64,000 bases of DNA from an uncultured Roseovarius sp. (lineage in GTDB: Bacteria > Pseudomonadota > Alphaproteobacteria > Rhodobacterales > Rhodobacteraceae): contig NZ_CANLER010000001.1 of assembly GCF_947489715.1 (NCBI RefSeq), positions 1-64,000 on the forward strand, read 5' to 3'. Positions 5,765 through 16,792 of the stretch are shown in pieces (the stretch's first letter is position 1; each line of letters begins with the position of its first letter). The translations under genes were made by a program, and so were the position numbers. Under the pieces are notes generated by a model. The model was given only the letters and a program-made list of their open reading frames with translations, was not told the DNA's origin and searched no databases.

Positions 5765-7129
5765 CTATTTTGCGGTCGCGATAGCGCGGATCAGCCGGTC
5801 AATATCGTCATCGCTTGTCGACCAGTTTGATACGCTTATCCGAAACCCGGAATGCCCTTGCCAGGTGGCTGCGCCGAACCAGGCTGCACCAGAGGTTTGA
5901 ATTTTCTGGACGATCGCGGCAGCCCGGTCACCACCCTCGGGTAGGGTTGCAAACACCTGGTTGAAATGAATTTCGTGGGGCACGAGAAAGCCCATGTCCT
6001 GAAGCTCTTGCGAAATTCGGATGGCGTGATGATGAAAACGGTCTACCAGATCACGAACACCGCTTCCTCCCAGCGACAAAAGCGCGGCCCAGGTTTCTGC
6101 GCCACGGGCCGAACGGCTAAATTCTGGCGCAAAGTCTGCCGGGCTGGGATCAGTTGCGGGCAGATAGGAGGCCCCGATCGCCATCGACGCGCGGAATTCA
6201 TCGGGATGGCGACAAAGGGCCAGCCCGGAATCGTAGGGGGCGTTCAGCGTCTTGTGCGCGTCCACGACCCAACTGTCGGCTAATTCAATTCCCTTGGTGG
6301 CCCGGGACGTTTCTGTTCCTGCCCGCATCCATAATCCGAATGCCCCGTCGACGTGAAGCCACGCTCCGGCCTCTTTGCTTCGACGCGCGATTTCGCCAAT
6401 GGGATCGACCGCACCGGTGCATACATTTCCGGCCTGCGCGATCACCAATGTACGTTGGTCGAGTGTAGGCACATCATCAAGTCGCATCCGGCCCTGACCG
6501 TCGGTGTCGACATATTCGATGTTGGCCGTTCCCAGACCAGCCATCCTGAGCGATTTAAGCACGGTGGCATGTATTTCCTTGCTGGCGACCACCCTGATGG
6601 GTGGCGCGCCGATCAGGCCAAGACCTCGTGCATGACCTTGCCTTTCAAGAAGTACGTCACGCGCTGTTACCAGAAGTGACATGTTCGCCATTGTCGCGCC
6701 ACTTGTGAAAGCGCCCTGGGTTTCATCCGGCAGGTTCAGAAGGTCCACGACCCACCGGATGGCGACGTCCTCTAACTTGAGGACGGACGGGCCTGTCAAC
6801 GCATCGGCAACTTGGTCCCAGGCCGATAACATCGCCCGCGCGCCCGACGCTGCCGGAAGCGCCCCACCTATGACATACCCGAAATACCGCCCGGCAGCAG
6901 AAGCAACAGTCGCGTCGCGCCCGGCGTCGTCCAGCAATTCCAGAACGTCTGATGCGCTAAGGCCAGTATCAGGCAACGGGAAATCCAGATCCCCCAACTT
7001 ATTGGTGTTTGCATGGACATTTCGGCTGGACAGCGATCTTAAATAATCCGCACCTCTTTTTGCGCCCGCTTCAAAGGCTTCACTCTGGATATGCAGGGGA
7101 TCGGAAGGTATTGTCATGACAGGGTCCAT
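5765..7129 (-). CDS. PLP-dependent group II amino acid decarboxylase
   Basis: Pyridoxal-phosphate enzyme of 454 residues in the aromatic-amino-acid/glutamate decarboxylase family. The cofactor lysine is K293 in VDAHKTLNAPYDSG, the pyridine-N aspartate is D261 in HVDGAFG, and the ring-stacking histidine is H187 in SKEIHATV. It would decarboxylate an amino acid, or act on a related PLP substrate, in the cytoplasm; the substrate cannot be read from the sequence. It is monocistronic and divergent from a small ArsR-like regulator, with only 20 bases between the two starts. A second in-frame ATG at 7117 is possible, since neither start has a clear ribosome site. Confidence 0.87.
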   Translation of the reverse strand: MDPVMTIPSDPLHIQSEAFEAGAKRGADYLRSLSSRNVHANTNKLGDLDFPLPDTGLSASDVLELLDDAGRDATVASAAGRYFGYVIGGALPAASGARAMLSAWDQVADALTGPSVLKLEDVAIRWVVDLLNLPDETQGAFTSGATMANMSLLVTARDVLLERQGHARGLGLIGAPPIRVVASKEIHATVLKSLRMAGLGTANIEYVDTDGQGRMRLDDVPTLDQRTLVIAQAGNVCTGAVDPIGEIARRSKEAGAWLHVDGAFGLWMRAGTETSRATKGIELADSWVVDAHKTLNAPYDSGLALCRHPDEFRASMAIGASYLPATDPSPADFAPEFSRSARGAETWAALLSLGGSGVRDLVDRFHHHAIRISQELQDMGFLVPHEIHFNQVFATLPEGGDRAAAIVQKIQTSGAAWFGAATWQGHSGFRISVSNWSTSDDDIDRLIRAIATAK

Positions 7130-7169
7130 ATAGAAGAGAATCTATATAGATGATTGACAATATAGATGA
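7128..7169. promoter_or_regulatory. Operator-like repeats spanning the decarboxylase/ArsR divergent starts
   Basis: A cluster of repeats overlaps both start codons. ATATAGA (7128-7134) and TCTATAT (7141-7147) form an inverted repeat with a 6-base spacer. TCTATATAGA (7141-7150) is a perfect 10-base palindrome. ATATAGATGA is repeated directly at 7144-7153 and 7160-7169, 16 bases apart. AT-rich dyads of this kind are typical ArsR-family operators, so autoregulation plus repression of the decarboxylase is likely. Confidence 0.5.
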
Positions 7170-7509
7170 AGAGTCAAGTGTGCCCGCATTGGTCGCGCTT
7201 GCCAGCCCCGTCAGGTTGCGCATTTTGATGTGGTTGCTTGATCCGAGGGCCCATTTCTCCGAGCAACGGGATGGCGATCTGGTCGATGATGGTGTGTGCG
7301 TGGGGTTCATTACGGAGAAGGCGGGGCTGAGCCAGCCGACAATCAGTTCGCATATGAAGAAATTATCCGATGCGGGATTGGTCCGTGGTAAGCGGATCGG
7401 GAATTGGATGTTCTACAAACCGGTCCGCGAGGTGCTTGCCTCGGTCGGTGAGGGGCTTGCGTCTGTGGCGCGCATCGAACCTTCGCAACCTTCGAACCCA
7501 GAGGTCTGA
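7150..7509 (+). CDS. ArsR-type winged-helix transcriptional regulator
   Basis: Small DNA-binding protein of 119 residues. The N-terminal part reads LVALASPVRLRILMWLL, the usual first helix of ArsR-family winged helices, and the recognition helix region reads AGLSQPTISSHMKKLSDAGL. The C-terminal wing contains GNWMFYKP. The classical metal-binding ELCVCDL motif is absent; only one cysteine (in DDGVCVGF) is seen, so metal sensing is not indicated. It likely represses itself and the divergent decarboxylase. No downstream gene follows in the same direction. Confidence 0.85.
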   Translation: MIDNIDEESSVPALVALASPVRLRILMWLLDPRAHFSEQRDGDLVDDGVCVGFITEKAGLSQPTISSHMKKLSDAGLVRGKRIGNWMFYKPVREVLASVGEGLASVARIEPSQPSNPEV

Positions 7510-7764
7510 TCAACCCGGCTGAGTATGGGCCAATTCGAAATTTACGACCTAAAAAATTGCCCTTATCCTGAAAGGCACTTTTGGCGGCCCGAACCGCGCA
7601 AAACGATGGGCCAGGCCAGTGGGTGCGTCCAAGGTTTTGATTTGTTCTCTGGCGAAGAACGTCGGGCATTTGGACCTGTGTGGTCGAACACCGGCTTTGG
7701 GCGGTCGACCACTGGACGTTTTTCATCGTGTATAACTCAGCCGTGCGATTTTTCGGGCACGGTG
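7510..7764. other. Convergent gap without a recognisable gene
   Basis: These 255 bases lie between the ends of the ArsR-type gene and the amidinotransferase-family gene. No coding region with a good ribosome site and no RNA gene was seen. On the minus strand a stem CCGTGC/GCACGG occurs just after the stop of the amidinotransferase gene, but without a T-run, so it is not a clear terminator. Confidence 0.5.
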
Positions 7765-8688
7765 TTATGCCTCGCGACGCAGCGCCTGGGCCATGCAATG
7801 AATGCCGCCGCCGGTCTTCGAGATTTCGGCAGTGTCGACGGCGGCGACTTCGAAGCCACGGGCGCGGAGTTGGTCGATCAGGACCGTGGACGACGATGGT
7901 GCGATCACCTTGTCGTTGCCCAGCGACATCATGTTGCAGCCAAGCGCCATCGTGTCCTGGAACGGCACGTCGATGATCTCGTGGCCTTTCGCGCGCAGCC
8001 AGTCGACGATCGCGGGGTCGGTACAGGCCAGGCAGACCGCCGTCAGCTTGTCGGCCACGGGCACGACCATCAGGTCGATATGCACGTAATATTCGTCGAT
8101 ATAGGCGATACGCACCTCCCAGCCCTCGGCCTCGAACCAGCCGGCGACCTGCCTGGCGCCGGCCTCGTTGGTGCGGGCCTCGCCGCAGCCGATCAGCACG
8201 CAGCCTTCCTCGATCACGTTGAAATCGCCACCTTCGAAGGTGCCGGCGGTGACCATGTCATAGATCGGGATGCCCAGCTTCTCGTAGGCGCGGATGGCGG
8301 CGTAATTCTCGCCGCGCCGCCACCATTGCGACATGGCGGTGATGAAGGCGCCATAGGGGGTCATGCAGGAGCTGTCGCGGGAATAGACCTGCATGGTCAA
8401 TTCCGGCTCGGCCTCTAGCATGTGAACCTTGACGTTGAAATGGCGGTAGGCATCGACCAGTTCGGCGTGCTGGGCCTGGGCGGTCTGGATGTTGCAGGGG
8501 GCTTCGCGCAGGTGTTTGCGCGACAGGCTTGACGTGGCGCGGTGAAAAAGATGCGCGGGCGAGCCGAGCAGAACATCGGTCAGCGGGTCGGTTTCATTGC
8601 GAAAGCCCCAACCGGTCAGCGGCGCGGTGCCGCCCTTGGGGTTGCGGCGTTGCAGGGTGAAGGAGTCGGTCGATTTATCAAGAGCCAT
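7765..8688 (-). CDS. Amidinotransferase / dimethylarginine dimethylaminohydrolase family enzyme
   Basis: Enzyme of 307 residues from the guanidine-modifying (arginine deiminase-like) superfamily. The expected catalytic set is visible: D105 in SRDSS, EGGD at 152-155, H203 in YVHIDL and the nucleophile C298 in GGGIHCM near the C-terminus. Relatives hydrolyse or transfer the amidino group of arginine derivatives; the precise substrate is not readable. The start at 8688 is preferred over an upstream ATG at 8751 because the protein family begins there and the longer form would overlap the upstream amidohydrolase. It follows that gene by 19 bases and is surely in the same operon. Confidence 0.83.
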   Translation of the reverse strand: MALDKSTDSFTLQRRNPKGGTAPLTGWGFRNETDPLTDVLLGSPAHLFHRATSSLSRKHLREAPCNIQTAQAQHAELVDAYRHFNVKVHMLEAEPELTMQVYSRDSSCMTPYGAFITAMSQWWRRGENYAAIRAYEKLGIPIYDMVTAGTFEGGDFNVIEEGCVLIGCGEARTNEAGARQVAGWFEAEGWEVRIAYIDEYYVHIDLMVVPVADKLTAVCLACTDPAIVDWLRAKGHEIIDVPFQDTMALGCNMMSLGNDKVIAPSSSTVLIDQLRARGFEVAAVDTAEISKTGGGIHCMAQALRREA

Positions 8689-8707
8689 GGAGGGGGTCCT
8701 TTCAGTT

Positions 8708-13363: not shown

Positions 13364-13728
13364 GATATTCTTCCTTCTTTCCGGGGTGTTGGCCCGGCTT
13401 TGTAACAGTTCTGTGTCTGTGGCTCAGGTAGTCCTGCGGCGGCAAAACGACAAGCAGCGAAAACTGCATATTCCCTATGCAAAAATTGCATGGGTGCAGC
13501 TTGAATGCTCGGCTGCGAAGGGGTGCATGACACCCGCCGGTCGCCTCTGCCGTGCAGGCCCCGCGGGTCCGGCCGGAACCTTGGGAGTGGTCGCCTGCAT
13601 TGGTCTTGCCGGGGGCGATGCGATCAGGATGGGCCGTGATTTGCGCGGCATATCTGCGCATTCCGCTTGGTGTTTGTTCTCGTTTCGTGCTAATGCTTGG
13701 CAAAACAGAAAAGAGCAGGGCAGAATTC
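13364..13728. other. Divergent DUF1127/ruvC intergenic region
   Basis: This 365-base gap has no convincing gene. It must hold promoters for DUF1127 (minus) and ruvC (plus). About 100 bases before DUF1127 is an inverted repeat TGCATA-TTCCC-TATGCA (13465-13481), followed by two further TGCA elements (13487 and 13495). A protein-binding dyad is possible; nothing else stands out. Confidence 0.4.
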
Positions 13729-14226
13729 ATGCGTGTATTGGGTATCGACCCCGGGTTGCGGAACCTCGGATGGGGCGTGATTGACGTGGATGGCAGCCGG
13801 CTGAGCCATGTGGCCAATGGCGTATGCAAATCGCGTGGCGATGACATGGCGGCGCGGCTTTTGTCGCTGCATCAACAACTTACCGCGGTGTTTACCGCCT
13901 ATGCGCCGGATACGGCGGCGGTGGAGCAGACTTTCGTCAACAAGGACGGGGCGGGGACGCTGAAGCTGGGCCAGGCGCGGGGCATTGCGGTGCTGGTGCC
14001 GGCGCAGTTCGGGCTGAGCGTCGGAGAATACGCGCCGAACCGGGTGAAAAAGACGGTTGTGGGCGTGGGCCATGCCGACAAGGCGCAGATCGGACATATG
14101 GTGAAAGTGCAGTTGCCGGGCTGTGATCCTACCGGCCCGGATGCGGCGGATGCGCTGGCGATCGCGATCTGTCATGCGCATCACGCGCGGTCGGCGCAGG
14201 TCATGGTGGAAAAGGTGCGCGCATGA
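13729..14226 (+). CDS. ruvC: Holliday junction resolvase RuvC
   Basis: Endonuclease of 165 residues that cuts four-way junctions produced by homologous recombination. The acidic active site is complete: D7 in GIDPG, E66 in VEQTF, and D138 and D141 in GPDAADALA. The start at 13729 gives the usual [10 protein letters not shown]-terminus; longer readings have no family support. It is the first gene of the ruv operon and overlaps ruvA by 4 bases (ATGA). Confidence 0.97.
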
Positions 14227-14876
14227 TCGGGCGGATCGCAGGCCGGGTGGATTACCGCGCCGAGGATCACGTGCTGATCGACGTGCGCGGCGTGGGTTAT
14301 CTGGTCTATTGCAATGATCGCACCCTGCAGGCGCTGCCCGCTGTGGGCGAACATACGGCACTTTATACCGACCTGCTGGTGCGCGAGGATAATCTGCAGC
14401 TTTTCGGTTTTACCTCGCTGGTGGAAAAGGAGTGGCACCGCCTGCTGATGAGCGTTCAGGGGGTCGGGGCCAAGGCGTCGATGGCGATCCTTGGCACGCT
14501 GGGGCCCGATGGCGCGGGCCGTGCGATTGCGCTGGGCGACTGGAATTCGGTGAAGGCGGCCAAGGGGATCGGCCCCAAGACGGCGCAGCGGGTGGTGAAC
14601 GAGTTGAAAGACAAGGCGCCGCAGGTGATGGCGATGGGCGCGAGCCCGGCCCCGGTTGTTGATCTCGGTGGCGATGAGGTGATCGAGGCAACTGTGCCTG
14701 CCGCCCCCGTGGCCGGGTCCGGCGCGCAGGCCGAGGCGCTGTCGGCCCTGAGCAATCTGGGGTATGCCCCGGGCGAGGCGGCCGGCGCCGTGGCGCAGGC
14801 GGCAGGCGACGCGCCCGAGGCGGAGACGCCCGCATTGATCCGCGCCGCGCTAAAATTGCTGGCACCGAAAGGGTAG
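14223..14876 (+). CDS. ruvA: Holliday junction branch migration protein RuvA
   Basis: DNA-binding tetramer subunit of 217 residues. The N-terminal OB-fold domain begins [11 protein letters not shown], the central pair of helix-hairpin-helix motifs is seen in [17 protein letters not shown] and [17 protein letters not shown], and a flexible Ala/Pro-rich linker leads to the C-terminal RuvB-binding helices. It loads the RuvB motor on Holliday junctions. Its start overlaps the ruvC stop, and its stop is only 6 bases before the inserted GIY-YIG gene. Confidence 0.97.
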
Positions 14877-14882
14877 GCACAG

Positions 14883-15767
14883 ATGGCTTTGCATCTTTGC
14901 ATGTTGCTGAAGGCCGAAGGACTGGATCCGGCAGATGTCTCGCTGGTATTCCACAAGACTAAATTACAGCCGTTTCGTCGGATGCTGCCGTGGCTGGTCC
15001 GGCAAAGGGCAGATCTTTTCGAAGCGTATCAGGCGGTTCATTCGACACCGGCGGAGAATACGCTGAAGAAGCGCCGGTTCTGTGCGAGTTTCGTGCCGTT
15101 GGATGAACATTTGATGATGTTCGTGGGTGTGTACTGCATCGCCGGGTTTAAGGAATTACCCACCTCGTTCATCTATGCCGATCGGCGTTACAGCGAACTT
15201 GAAGAAACCTACGGCGCTACCGATACAGGACCAACAGCCAATCTTGCGCGACAGGCCACACAACTTCGCTTCGATCTCGAATGCTCGGGATATCTTGCGG
15301 ATTTCTGCGGGCGGCTCATCGTGAAATCCCCGATGGGGCGGGCCTATATTCGCCGGGCCGATAAACTGAATCCTGAAATTTCGGAGCTCTTGGCCGAGCC
15401 ACAGTTTGAGCCGACTTGTCCGGACTGGCGGGAACTTGTGCTGGATGGGCTGGAAGTGCGGAATCTGCCGGAGAGCTGGAGGGCACGGCTCAGGGAATGG
15501 CGCGGGATTTACCTGATCATCGACCGCGCCGGTGGCGCGCGCTATGTTGGGTCCGCCTATGGCCTGGAGAATATTCTTGGCCGTTGGCTTGCGCATGTTG
15601 CCGGCGATGTTGGCGTGACGCGCGAGCTGAAAAAACGCAGCGCCAAGGATTTTCGCTTCTCGATTCTGGAGAGGGTTTCTCCGGATGAGGTTGTTGAAGA
15701 GGTTGTCGCGTTGGAACATGGTTGGATGAATCGATTGGGCACGAGGGAATGGGGTCTGAATGCATGA
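14883..15767 (+). CDS. GIY-YIG domain protein between ruvA and ruvB
   Basis: Protein of 294 residues with an unrecognised N-terminal region (about 1-200) and a C-terminal GIY-YIG nuclease-like domain. GIY is at 208-210, YVG at 221-223, the helix arginine is R234 (GRW) and the metal-binding glutamate is E278 in [11 protein letters not shown], followed by the typical REWGLN ending. All key catalytic positions of the family appear intact. It is tightly packed, 6 bases after ruvA, and its TGA overlaps the ruvB ATG, so it is co-translated with the branch-migration genes. Three 60-base lines counted by hand (from 15001, 15121, 15181) have 32 G+C each (53%), against 39 and 48 in lines of ruvA (14521) and ruvB (16381). 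This suggests transfer into the operon. A junction- or branch-specific nuclease role is inference. Confidence 0.85.
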
Positions 15768-16792
15768 GTGAGCCTGATCCCAACCTGCGCCCCGAGCAAC
15801 TGCCCGACGATCAGGACCGGTCGCTCAGGCCGCAGGCGCTGAGCGAGTTCATTGGTCAAGCCGAGGCGCGGGCCAATTTGCGCGTCTTCATCCAGTCCGC
15901 CCGGCAGCGCGGCGAGGCCATGGACCATACGCTGTTTCATGGCCCCCCCGGTCTGGGCAAGACGACGCTGGCGCAGATCCTGTCGAAGGAGCTGGGCGTC
16001 GGGTTCCGGATGACATCGGGCCCGGTGCTGGCCAAGGCGGGGGATCTGGCGGCGATCCTGACCAATCTGGAGCGCAACGATGTGCTCTTCATCGACGAAA
16101 TTCACCGACTGAACCCGGCGGTGGAAGAAGTGCTCTATCCCGCGCTGGAAGATTTCGAACTGGACCTGGTGATCGGCGAAGGACCGGCGGCGCGCACGGT
16201 GCGGATCGAATTGCAGCCTTTTACGCTGGTGGGCGCGACGACCCGGTTGGGGTTGCTGACCACGCCGCTGCGCGATCGTTTCGGCATCCCGGTGCGGTTG
16301 CAGTTCTATACTGAGGACGAACTGTACGAGATTGTCCGCCGCAATGCCGATCTGCTGGGCGCACCGGCGGATGCCGACGGCGCGCGCGAGATTGCCCGCC
16401 GGGCGCGCGGTACGCCCCGGATCGCCGGGCGACTGTTGCGCCGGGTGGTGGATTTTGCGCTGGTCGAGGGCGATGGGCATGTGACCCGCGCGCTGGCAGA
16501 TCATGCGCTGACCCGCCTGGGCGTGGATCAGCTGGGCTGTGACGGGGCTGACCGGCGGTATCTGACGCTGATCGCCGAGGCCTATCAGGGCGGGCCGGTG
16601 GGGATCGAGACGATCAGCGCGGCGCTGTCGGAATCCCGCGATGCGCTGGAAGAGGTGATCGAGCCGTTCCTGCTGCAGCAGGGGCTGATCCAGCGCACCC
16701 CGCGCGGGCGCATGCTGGCGCAGCGGGGGTGGCGGCATCTGGGGCTGGCTGTGCCCGAGGGCAAGGCGCAATCCGATCTCTTCGGGAAATAG
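15764..16792 (+). CDS. ruvB: Holliday junction branch migration ATPase RuvB
   Basis: AAA+ motor of 342 residues that drives branch migration with RuvA. Walker A GPPGLGKT is at 60-67, Walker B/DEIH at 111-114, sensor [14 protein letters not shown] near 158-170 with the arginine-finger region, and a C-terminal winged-helix domain ends the protein. The start at 15764 overlaps the stop of the GIY-YIG gene as ATGA; a longer in-frame reading from 15722 lies wholly within that gene and is not needed. It is the last ruv gene. Confidence 0.97.

Follow-up and report, generated by a model that had tools for sequence, protein, structure and literature searches.

What does a GIY-YIG nuclease gene do inside the ruv operon, and does its position there mean that it works with RuvAB? 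The question is raised by the window analyzed here, a 64,000-nucleotide stretch of DNA from an uncultured Roseovarius sp., in which an open reading frame for a 294-residue protein lies between ruvA and ruvB. The initial annotation, made from the letters alone, had considered a second, structure-specific nuclease coupled to the Holliday-junction motor. The features on which the following analysis draws are these:

13676 to 13690, + strand: LexA-box-like element GTTCTCGTTTCGTGC, in a conserved place some 40-50 nt before ruvC
13729 to 14226, + strand: ruvC (Pfam RuvC, E 1.3e-41)
14223 to 14876, + strand: ruvA (NCBIfam ruvA, E 2e-50)
14883 to 15767, + strand: uzuA (294 aa), a GIY-YIG nuclease gene of the Uzume anti-phage family by its matches to PADLOC UzuA PDLC03973 and Pfam GIY-YIG PF01541
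14883 to 15398, + strand: N-terminal domain of UzuA (residues 1-172), presumed DNA-target sensor (AlphaFold2 model, weak Foldseek matches, architecture of the L182 protein)
15504 to 15764, + strand: C-terminal GIY-YIG catalytic domain of UzuA (residues 208-294; Pfam, invariant residues in alignment A1, Foldseek)
15764 to 16792, + strand: ruvB (NCBIfam RuvB, E 3.2e-149), its start codon overlapping the uzuA stop (ATGA)

The arrangement first described holds up, as uzuA starts with an ATG 6 nt 3' of the ruvA stop and overlaps the ruvB start by 4 nt, the ATGA at 15764. The active site is also intact, with GIY at residues 208-210, YVG at 221-223, R234 and E278 all as claimed. The gene is poorer in G+C than its neighbors (0.558 versus 0.676 for ruvA and 0.672 for ruvB), as had been noted from a hand count, the 53% then given fitting the 5' half of uzuA. 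At third codon positions the values are 0.614 for uzuA versus 0.802 and 0.813 for ruvA and ruvB.

Identity of the protein

By its full-length profile match, the open reading frame is the gene of UzuA, the protein behind the Uzume anti-phage system, and its GIY-YIG site is intact. The PADLOC UzuA profile PDLC03973 aligns with residues 1-293 of 294 over profile positions 1-276 of 278 (E 3.2e-51), and four relatives (L003, L009, L022, and L039) likewise match PADLOC UzuA over their full length. Because this match covers the whole protein, its N-terminus is the UzuA N-terminal part, and the 200 residues that had been called unrecognized belong to a described family. Uzume was reportedly validated in the laboratory by Millman and colleagues in 2022. 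A table in a 2026 review places the system under Doron 2018 and Millman 2022 and gives its mechanism as Unknown (PMC12926258), and our literature search found no published Uzume mechanism and no paper joining Uzume with GIY-YIG.

UzuA has the GIY...YIG motif, the catalytic Arg and Glu, and the fold of the GIY-YIG superfamily. The sole Pfam match of the window protein is GIY-YIG (PF01541, residues 208-287, E 7.6e-5, 23.4 bits versus a cut-off of 22.6), and G208, Y210, Y221, G223, R234, E278, and N293 are invariant across the 36 rows of alignment A1. This alignment omits the window copy (L001), the fragments L038, L040, L048, L024, and L028, and the truncated L045, while the duplicates L014, L023, L026, L032, L036, and L047 are omitted from both A1 and the 44-row tree described below. 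UzuA starts were chosen by rule, and the 5' part of L028 lies beyond its contig end. Loss of catalytic residues across homologs, which the initial annotation had named as evidence against its reading, is seen in none of the 36 A1 rows; L045, outside A1, is nevertheless without the whole nuclease domain.

The predicted structure of UzuA is confident (pLDDT 95.1), and the best Foldseek matches of the C-terminal domain are to the I-TevI catalytic domain (E 6.9e-3, prob 1.00). Weak matches to homing or intron endonuclease profiles are also found (E 0.0022, 0.19, and 0.0037). A PDB sequence search with the single UzuA protein gave no match, and a Foldseek search against viral structures returned nothing at E up to 0.001, the best being 0.025. 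SLX1, the comparison drawn at first, is a eukaryotic branch nuclease whose likeness to UzuA is limited to the GIY-YIG superfamily, and it does not appear among the listed matches of our searches. In the one pair compared (L007 versus L008), uzuA is under purifying selection, with dN 0.076, dS 0.80, and dN/dS about 0.1. A pseudogene was ruled out by the open frame, the conserved site, and the dN/dS of this pair.

The ruvA-ruvB slot and its occupants

A pattern-based scan of GTDB species genomes recovered 23 relatives. Ranked by E-value, the first 10 (39-52% identity) are without exception located in the ruvA-ruvB slot, and the remaining 13 (38-41% identity) have no ruv gene in their 4-11 kb flank. 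Within the family, a relative occurs anywhere in 23/394 genomes, nearly all of different genera, and RuvA in 381/394; in 13 of the 23, window included, it lies in the ruv slot, and of these 13 copies 12 have the nuclease domain and one lacks it. Among them, the G177 contig includes ruvB and uzuA and then ends, and in G190 a protease gene adjoins uzuA. In a sample of 385 genomes from the class, a relative occurs in 13 other than the window, none with a ruv gene in its flank of ~1.5 kb.

In the 44-row tree, the 19 ruv-linked rows form one clade with support of 100/100, and no member of this clade is found away from ruv in the sample. The tree omits L001, L038, L040, L048, L045, and L042 and the class-search rows L169, L173, L177, and L179-L186. 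With G1043, added later, there are 20 distinct ruv-linked copies with a nuclease domain, all from Rhodobacteraceae, and the proteins of the ruv clade are about 40-56% identical to the window UzuA. A true GIY-YIG nuclease gene is built into the ruv operon, as first proposed, and the link is conserved. Relatives lacking a ruv link, which the initial annotation had named as evidence against its reading, do exist (the 13 of 23 above), and they count against a structure-specific partner of RuvAB. Random insertion was ruled out by one clade at one site. The conserved link between uzuA and ruv appears to be unreported: judged by titles and the starts of abstracts, a literature search on GIY-YIG with ruvA or ruvB and on UzuA gave no report of the arrangement.

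The fit to the operon is close. A 4-nt overlap between the uzuA stop and the ruvB ATG is seen in 16/19 copies, and by the start-picking rule uzuA begins 2-6 nt after ruvA in 16 of the 18 measurable copies. Upstream of ruvC, a GTTC-N7-GTGC element is found at 51-82 nt in 14 of the 18 uzuA carriers examined and at 49-90 nt in 20/20 congeners without uzuA. With one mismatch allowed, the bare pattern shows no enrichment in the window (52 occurrences, 51 expected), so the support for the element is its constant place. Alphaproteobacterial LexA boxes fall into GTTC and GAAC motif groups (PMC6473078; the available text of that paper has no ruv match), and by analogy the element may be a LexA site. 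If so, uzuA would have taken over a pre-existing damage-responsive promoter.

How often is the slot filled? The first 122 of the 381 RuvA matches, less the window and the known carrier G108, gave 120 relatives, one of which is without ruvB at a contig end. Of the other 119, 117 have no insert above about 170 nt between ruvA and ruvB, a count that includes L131, measured on a broken ruvB match. In the other two, L125 has an M48 protease as its insert and L144 a membrane-like protein of 219 residues; because such unrelated genes also occupy the slot, residence there does not imply a Ruv function. The protease gene, HtpX-like, stands alone in L125 (178-1134) and together with uzuA in L031 (584-1480). 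The membrane-like protein (L144:2075-2734, minus strand) scores 13.1 bits against the Pfam family SieB, a superinfection exclusion protein, where the cut-off is 26 (E 0.072), and it has no PADLOC match.

Closer to the window, all 20 congeners examined have a ruvA-ruvB gap of -4 to 58 nt and no insert, and in the closest, with a RuvB 95.6% identical, the gap is 3 nt. Among 84 genomes of the genus, four have an UzuA relative: the window; G1043, whose copy in the ruv slot is 47% identical to that of the window; G827, where it sits beside phage tail genes; and G830, with a distant copy near neither ruv nor tail genes. The UzuA nearest to that of the window belongs to another genus (56% identity; support 94/85), not to the congener. 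As the copies of the window and of G1043 share only 47% identity, and as uzuA distances do not follow those of ruv (see below), the slot has been filled more than once or copies have been exchanged.

Relatives outside ruv and probable gene transfer

One of the two clades nearest to the ruv clade, of 12 Rhodobacterales rows, is a prophage gene, with 10/12 flanked by tail or head genes of PHROG families. The tree does not resolve the branching order of the ruv clade, this clade, and a four-row clade of other bacteria. The flanks of L018 and L021 include a tape measure protein, a tail assembly chaperone (scanned in L018), a minor tail protein (phrog_290), and a major head protein, and in 8/8 loci where both genes were found the prophage uzuA sits between those of phrog_290 and phrog_6367. 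In L021 a 759-residue open reading frame (6414-8693) with a P-loop-like motif, seen by eye, lies beside uzuA and has no PHROG match. Altogether, 13 of the 33 non-ruv loci searched adjoin phage genes, many of the others having only about 1.5 kb of flank; one of the 13, L038, adjoins only a phage family of unknown function, phrog_6367.

In IMG/VR, a relative is present on 18 viral contigs, of which 12 have most of the protein and six its C-terminal part; some are the same contigs as among the 23 relatives of the GTDB scan. Distant relatives are on plasmids, in 358 of 72,556 records (with at least 80% of the protein covered in 161), and two of 50,697 named phages have one, both over about half of the protein. 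Spread over prophages, viral contigs, and plasmids, uzuA has the distribution of a mobile accessory gene. In the window, five genes lying no more than about 4 kb from ruv have no PADLOC match, so a defense reading gets no support from a local defense island.

To what extent does uzuA share the history of its neighbors? In 17 carriers, protein distances of UzuA show no correlation with those of RuvC, RuvA, and RuvB combined (Spearman 0.11, P 0.18), although saturation of the fast uzuA could weaken its correlation; the ruv genes among themselves give 0.39-0.53 (P at most 0.007). In AU tests the ruv topology is rejected for uzuA and that of uzuA for ruv, but ruvA, ruvB, and ruvC also reject each other's, so tree discordance is no clean evidence of transfer. 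The third-position G+C of uzuA is below that of both neighbors in 17/19 carriers. When 19 carriers and 116 non-carriers are placed on a RuvB tree, carrier status changes 14 times versus a mean of 18.0 in shuffled labels, the carriers thus being slightly clustered, and well supported branches force only four changes. Together, the distance discordance, the low third-position G+C, and the label changes on the RuvB tree favor repeated gain and loss, for which recombination in the flanking ruv genes would be the route. A fitting vehicle would be gene transfer agents, which occur in Rhodobacterales. Import of flanking DNA was dropped as proof of transfer: identity with the nearest congener lacking uzuA declines on approach to the junction, but it also declines at the ruvA end in the control between empty genomes, and the best-of-19 comparison is biased.

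The N-terminal domain and the explanations weighed

An AlphaFold2 model of residues 1-182 alone is confident (pLDDT 96.0) and shows a mixed alpha/beta domain of ~172 residues. Its Foldseek matches are weak, ranks 1-8 being ZmASCH (PUA-like) chains (best E 0.037, TM 0.29-0.35 by query length) and rank 9 CMoRE/PD-T4-3 (9u7u; E 0.32, prob 0.21). Alignment with hhalign against ASCH (3 rows) and EVE (8 rows) gave no match, and a Pfam scan of 36 UzuA members found no recurrent sensor family, GIY-YIG alone recurring (35/36). A better hint of a sensor than the Foldseek ranks comes from L182 (682-1968, minus strand), in which the UzuA N-terminal domain (profile 2-149, E 9e-20) is followed by a DUF2002-like stretch, scoring below the cut-off of that family, and an HNH nuclease. 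Here the cutter is swapped behind a constant reader, the build of modification-dependent restriction enzymes. Most likely, the UzuA N-terminal domain would sense a feature of foreign DNA, plausibly a modified base.

Known systems offer points of comparison. Fusions of EVE (PMC7641849) and of winged-helix (wH) domains (PMC11037411) with GIY-YIG are on record. Ahi29725I and Apa233I, wH-GIY-YIG m6A-dependent type IV restriction enzymes of about 24 kDa (PMC11037411), have, as read from the name wH-GIY-YIG, the same sensor-then-nuclease order as UzuA, but their sensor is a winged helix, unlike the mixed alpha/beta domain of UzuA. CMoRE/PD-T4-3 is a 5hmC-specific GIY-YIG type IV restriction enzyme, for whose sensing domain its authors report no homolog (PMC12923530). 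Like UzuA, it is a single-protein defense joining a GIY-YIG cutter to a second domain, and the N-terminal domain of UzuA matches it weakly in structure, whereas the order of domains is reversed, GIY-YIG being N-terminal in CMoRE (PMC12923530) and C-terminal in UzuA. By analogy, UzuA is perhaps modification-dependent in the same way. As for Uzume itself, the window lineage shares the full-length profile match (PADLOC PDLC03973/PDLC03974) and the C-terminal GIY-YIG domain but sits inside a core repair operon, while in the Bacillus cereus group most Uzume systems are on plasmids (PMC11811056).

We consider it moderately probable that UzuA is a stand-alone defense nuclease seated in the ruv operon, with no role in RuvAB action needed. 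The N-terminal domain would sense a feature of foreign DNA, probably a base modification, and the C-terminal GIY-YIG domain would cut the DNA so sensed, degrading phage DNA. The gene would have settled exactly between ruvA and ruvB in one Rhodobacteraceae lineage, would probably be expressed from the promoter of ruv, its translation following on from that of its neighbors, and would come and go through homologous recombination in the flanking ruv genes. We infer the defense function in this host, the cue read by the N-terminal domain, the co-expression with ruv, and the route of transfer. The locus is best accounted for by an anti-phage nuclease of a known kind whose seat is unusual and has been filled repeatedly; a repair partner, though possible, is not needed to explain it.

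The strongest rival is a homing endonuclease that cuts the empty ruvA-ruvB junction, is copied in by recombination, and spreads without benefit to the host, which we regard as unlikely. It would suit a lineage that is one clade locked to one site, patchy, and discordant with host genes (though the ruv genes reject one another too), with two different copies in one genus, and inserted cleanly between two genes; a single place is likewise kept by the prophage copies (8/8 loci), I-TevI is the closest solved structure, and there are the weak homing and intron endonuclease profile matches. However, the full-length family is UzuA, not a homing family, and an N-terminal module fused to HNH is unlike a site-specific homing domain. 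Enzymes of the I-TevI type have the nuclease domain at the N-terminus, and I-TevI is intron-borne, whereas the GIY-YIG domain of UzuA is C-terminal. Nor do remnants of degeneration mark the slot, 117 of 119 (from the first 122 of 381 RuvA matches) showing no insert above about 170 nt and one copy, L045, truncated. The role considered at the outset, a structure-specific nuclease for the junctions or forks that RuvAB moves, working with RuvC or in its place, seems to us distinctly improbable. Its attractions are the operon position, the 4-nt overlap with ruvB in 16/19 copies, the promoter element shared with ruvC, and a ruv clade with no member away from ruv in the sample, but ruvC is present in the window, and UzuA is not found wherever ruvAB is (23/394 versus 381/394 family genomes for RuvA). 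The proposal also falters on the family being one of defense, on relatives that lack a ruv link and lie in prophages and plasmids, on unrelated genes sharing the slot, and on the same 117 of 119 slots holding no insert.

A neutral passenger in a safe, expressed slot would agree with the low frequency of uzuA and its absence from most relatives, but purifying selection in one pair and catalytic residues kept at about 40-56% identity make this very improbable. More speculatively, the ruvA-ruvB junction of Rhodobacteraceae may be a dedicated one-gene port that a phage-related nuclease enters again and again, with UzuA, or recombination helped by it, driving entry into empty alleles, after which the nuclease would attack phages through damage-linked expression with RuvAB or at phage junctions processed by RuvAB; defense, gene drive, and recombination machinery would then be one unit, a reading to which we give a small chance. 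The window lineage ties Uzume to a GIY-YIG cutter, a reusable N-terminal module, prophages, and a fixed seat in a repair operon, and the mechanism of Uzume thereby becomes directly testable. It also places a defense-family gene in a core housekeeping operon, where searches of defense islands would not look.

A search with the N-terminal domain in 219 genomes of the phylum gave two matches besides the window: L214, a near-full-length UzuA, and L213 (1150-1794, minus strand), an N-terminal fragment (profile 3-87, E 3e-13) that adjoins a transposase-like open reading frame, recognized by eye. Such a frame, again seen by eye, is also near the L182 fusion gene. In L045 (1504-2022) the domain stands alone in the slot, as 172 aa without GIY-YIG and with a 13-nt overlap with ruvB, and in L002 (5001-5984) UzuA has an extra stretch of ~34 residues inside its N-terminal domain.
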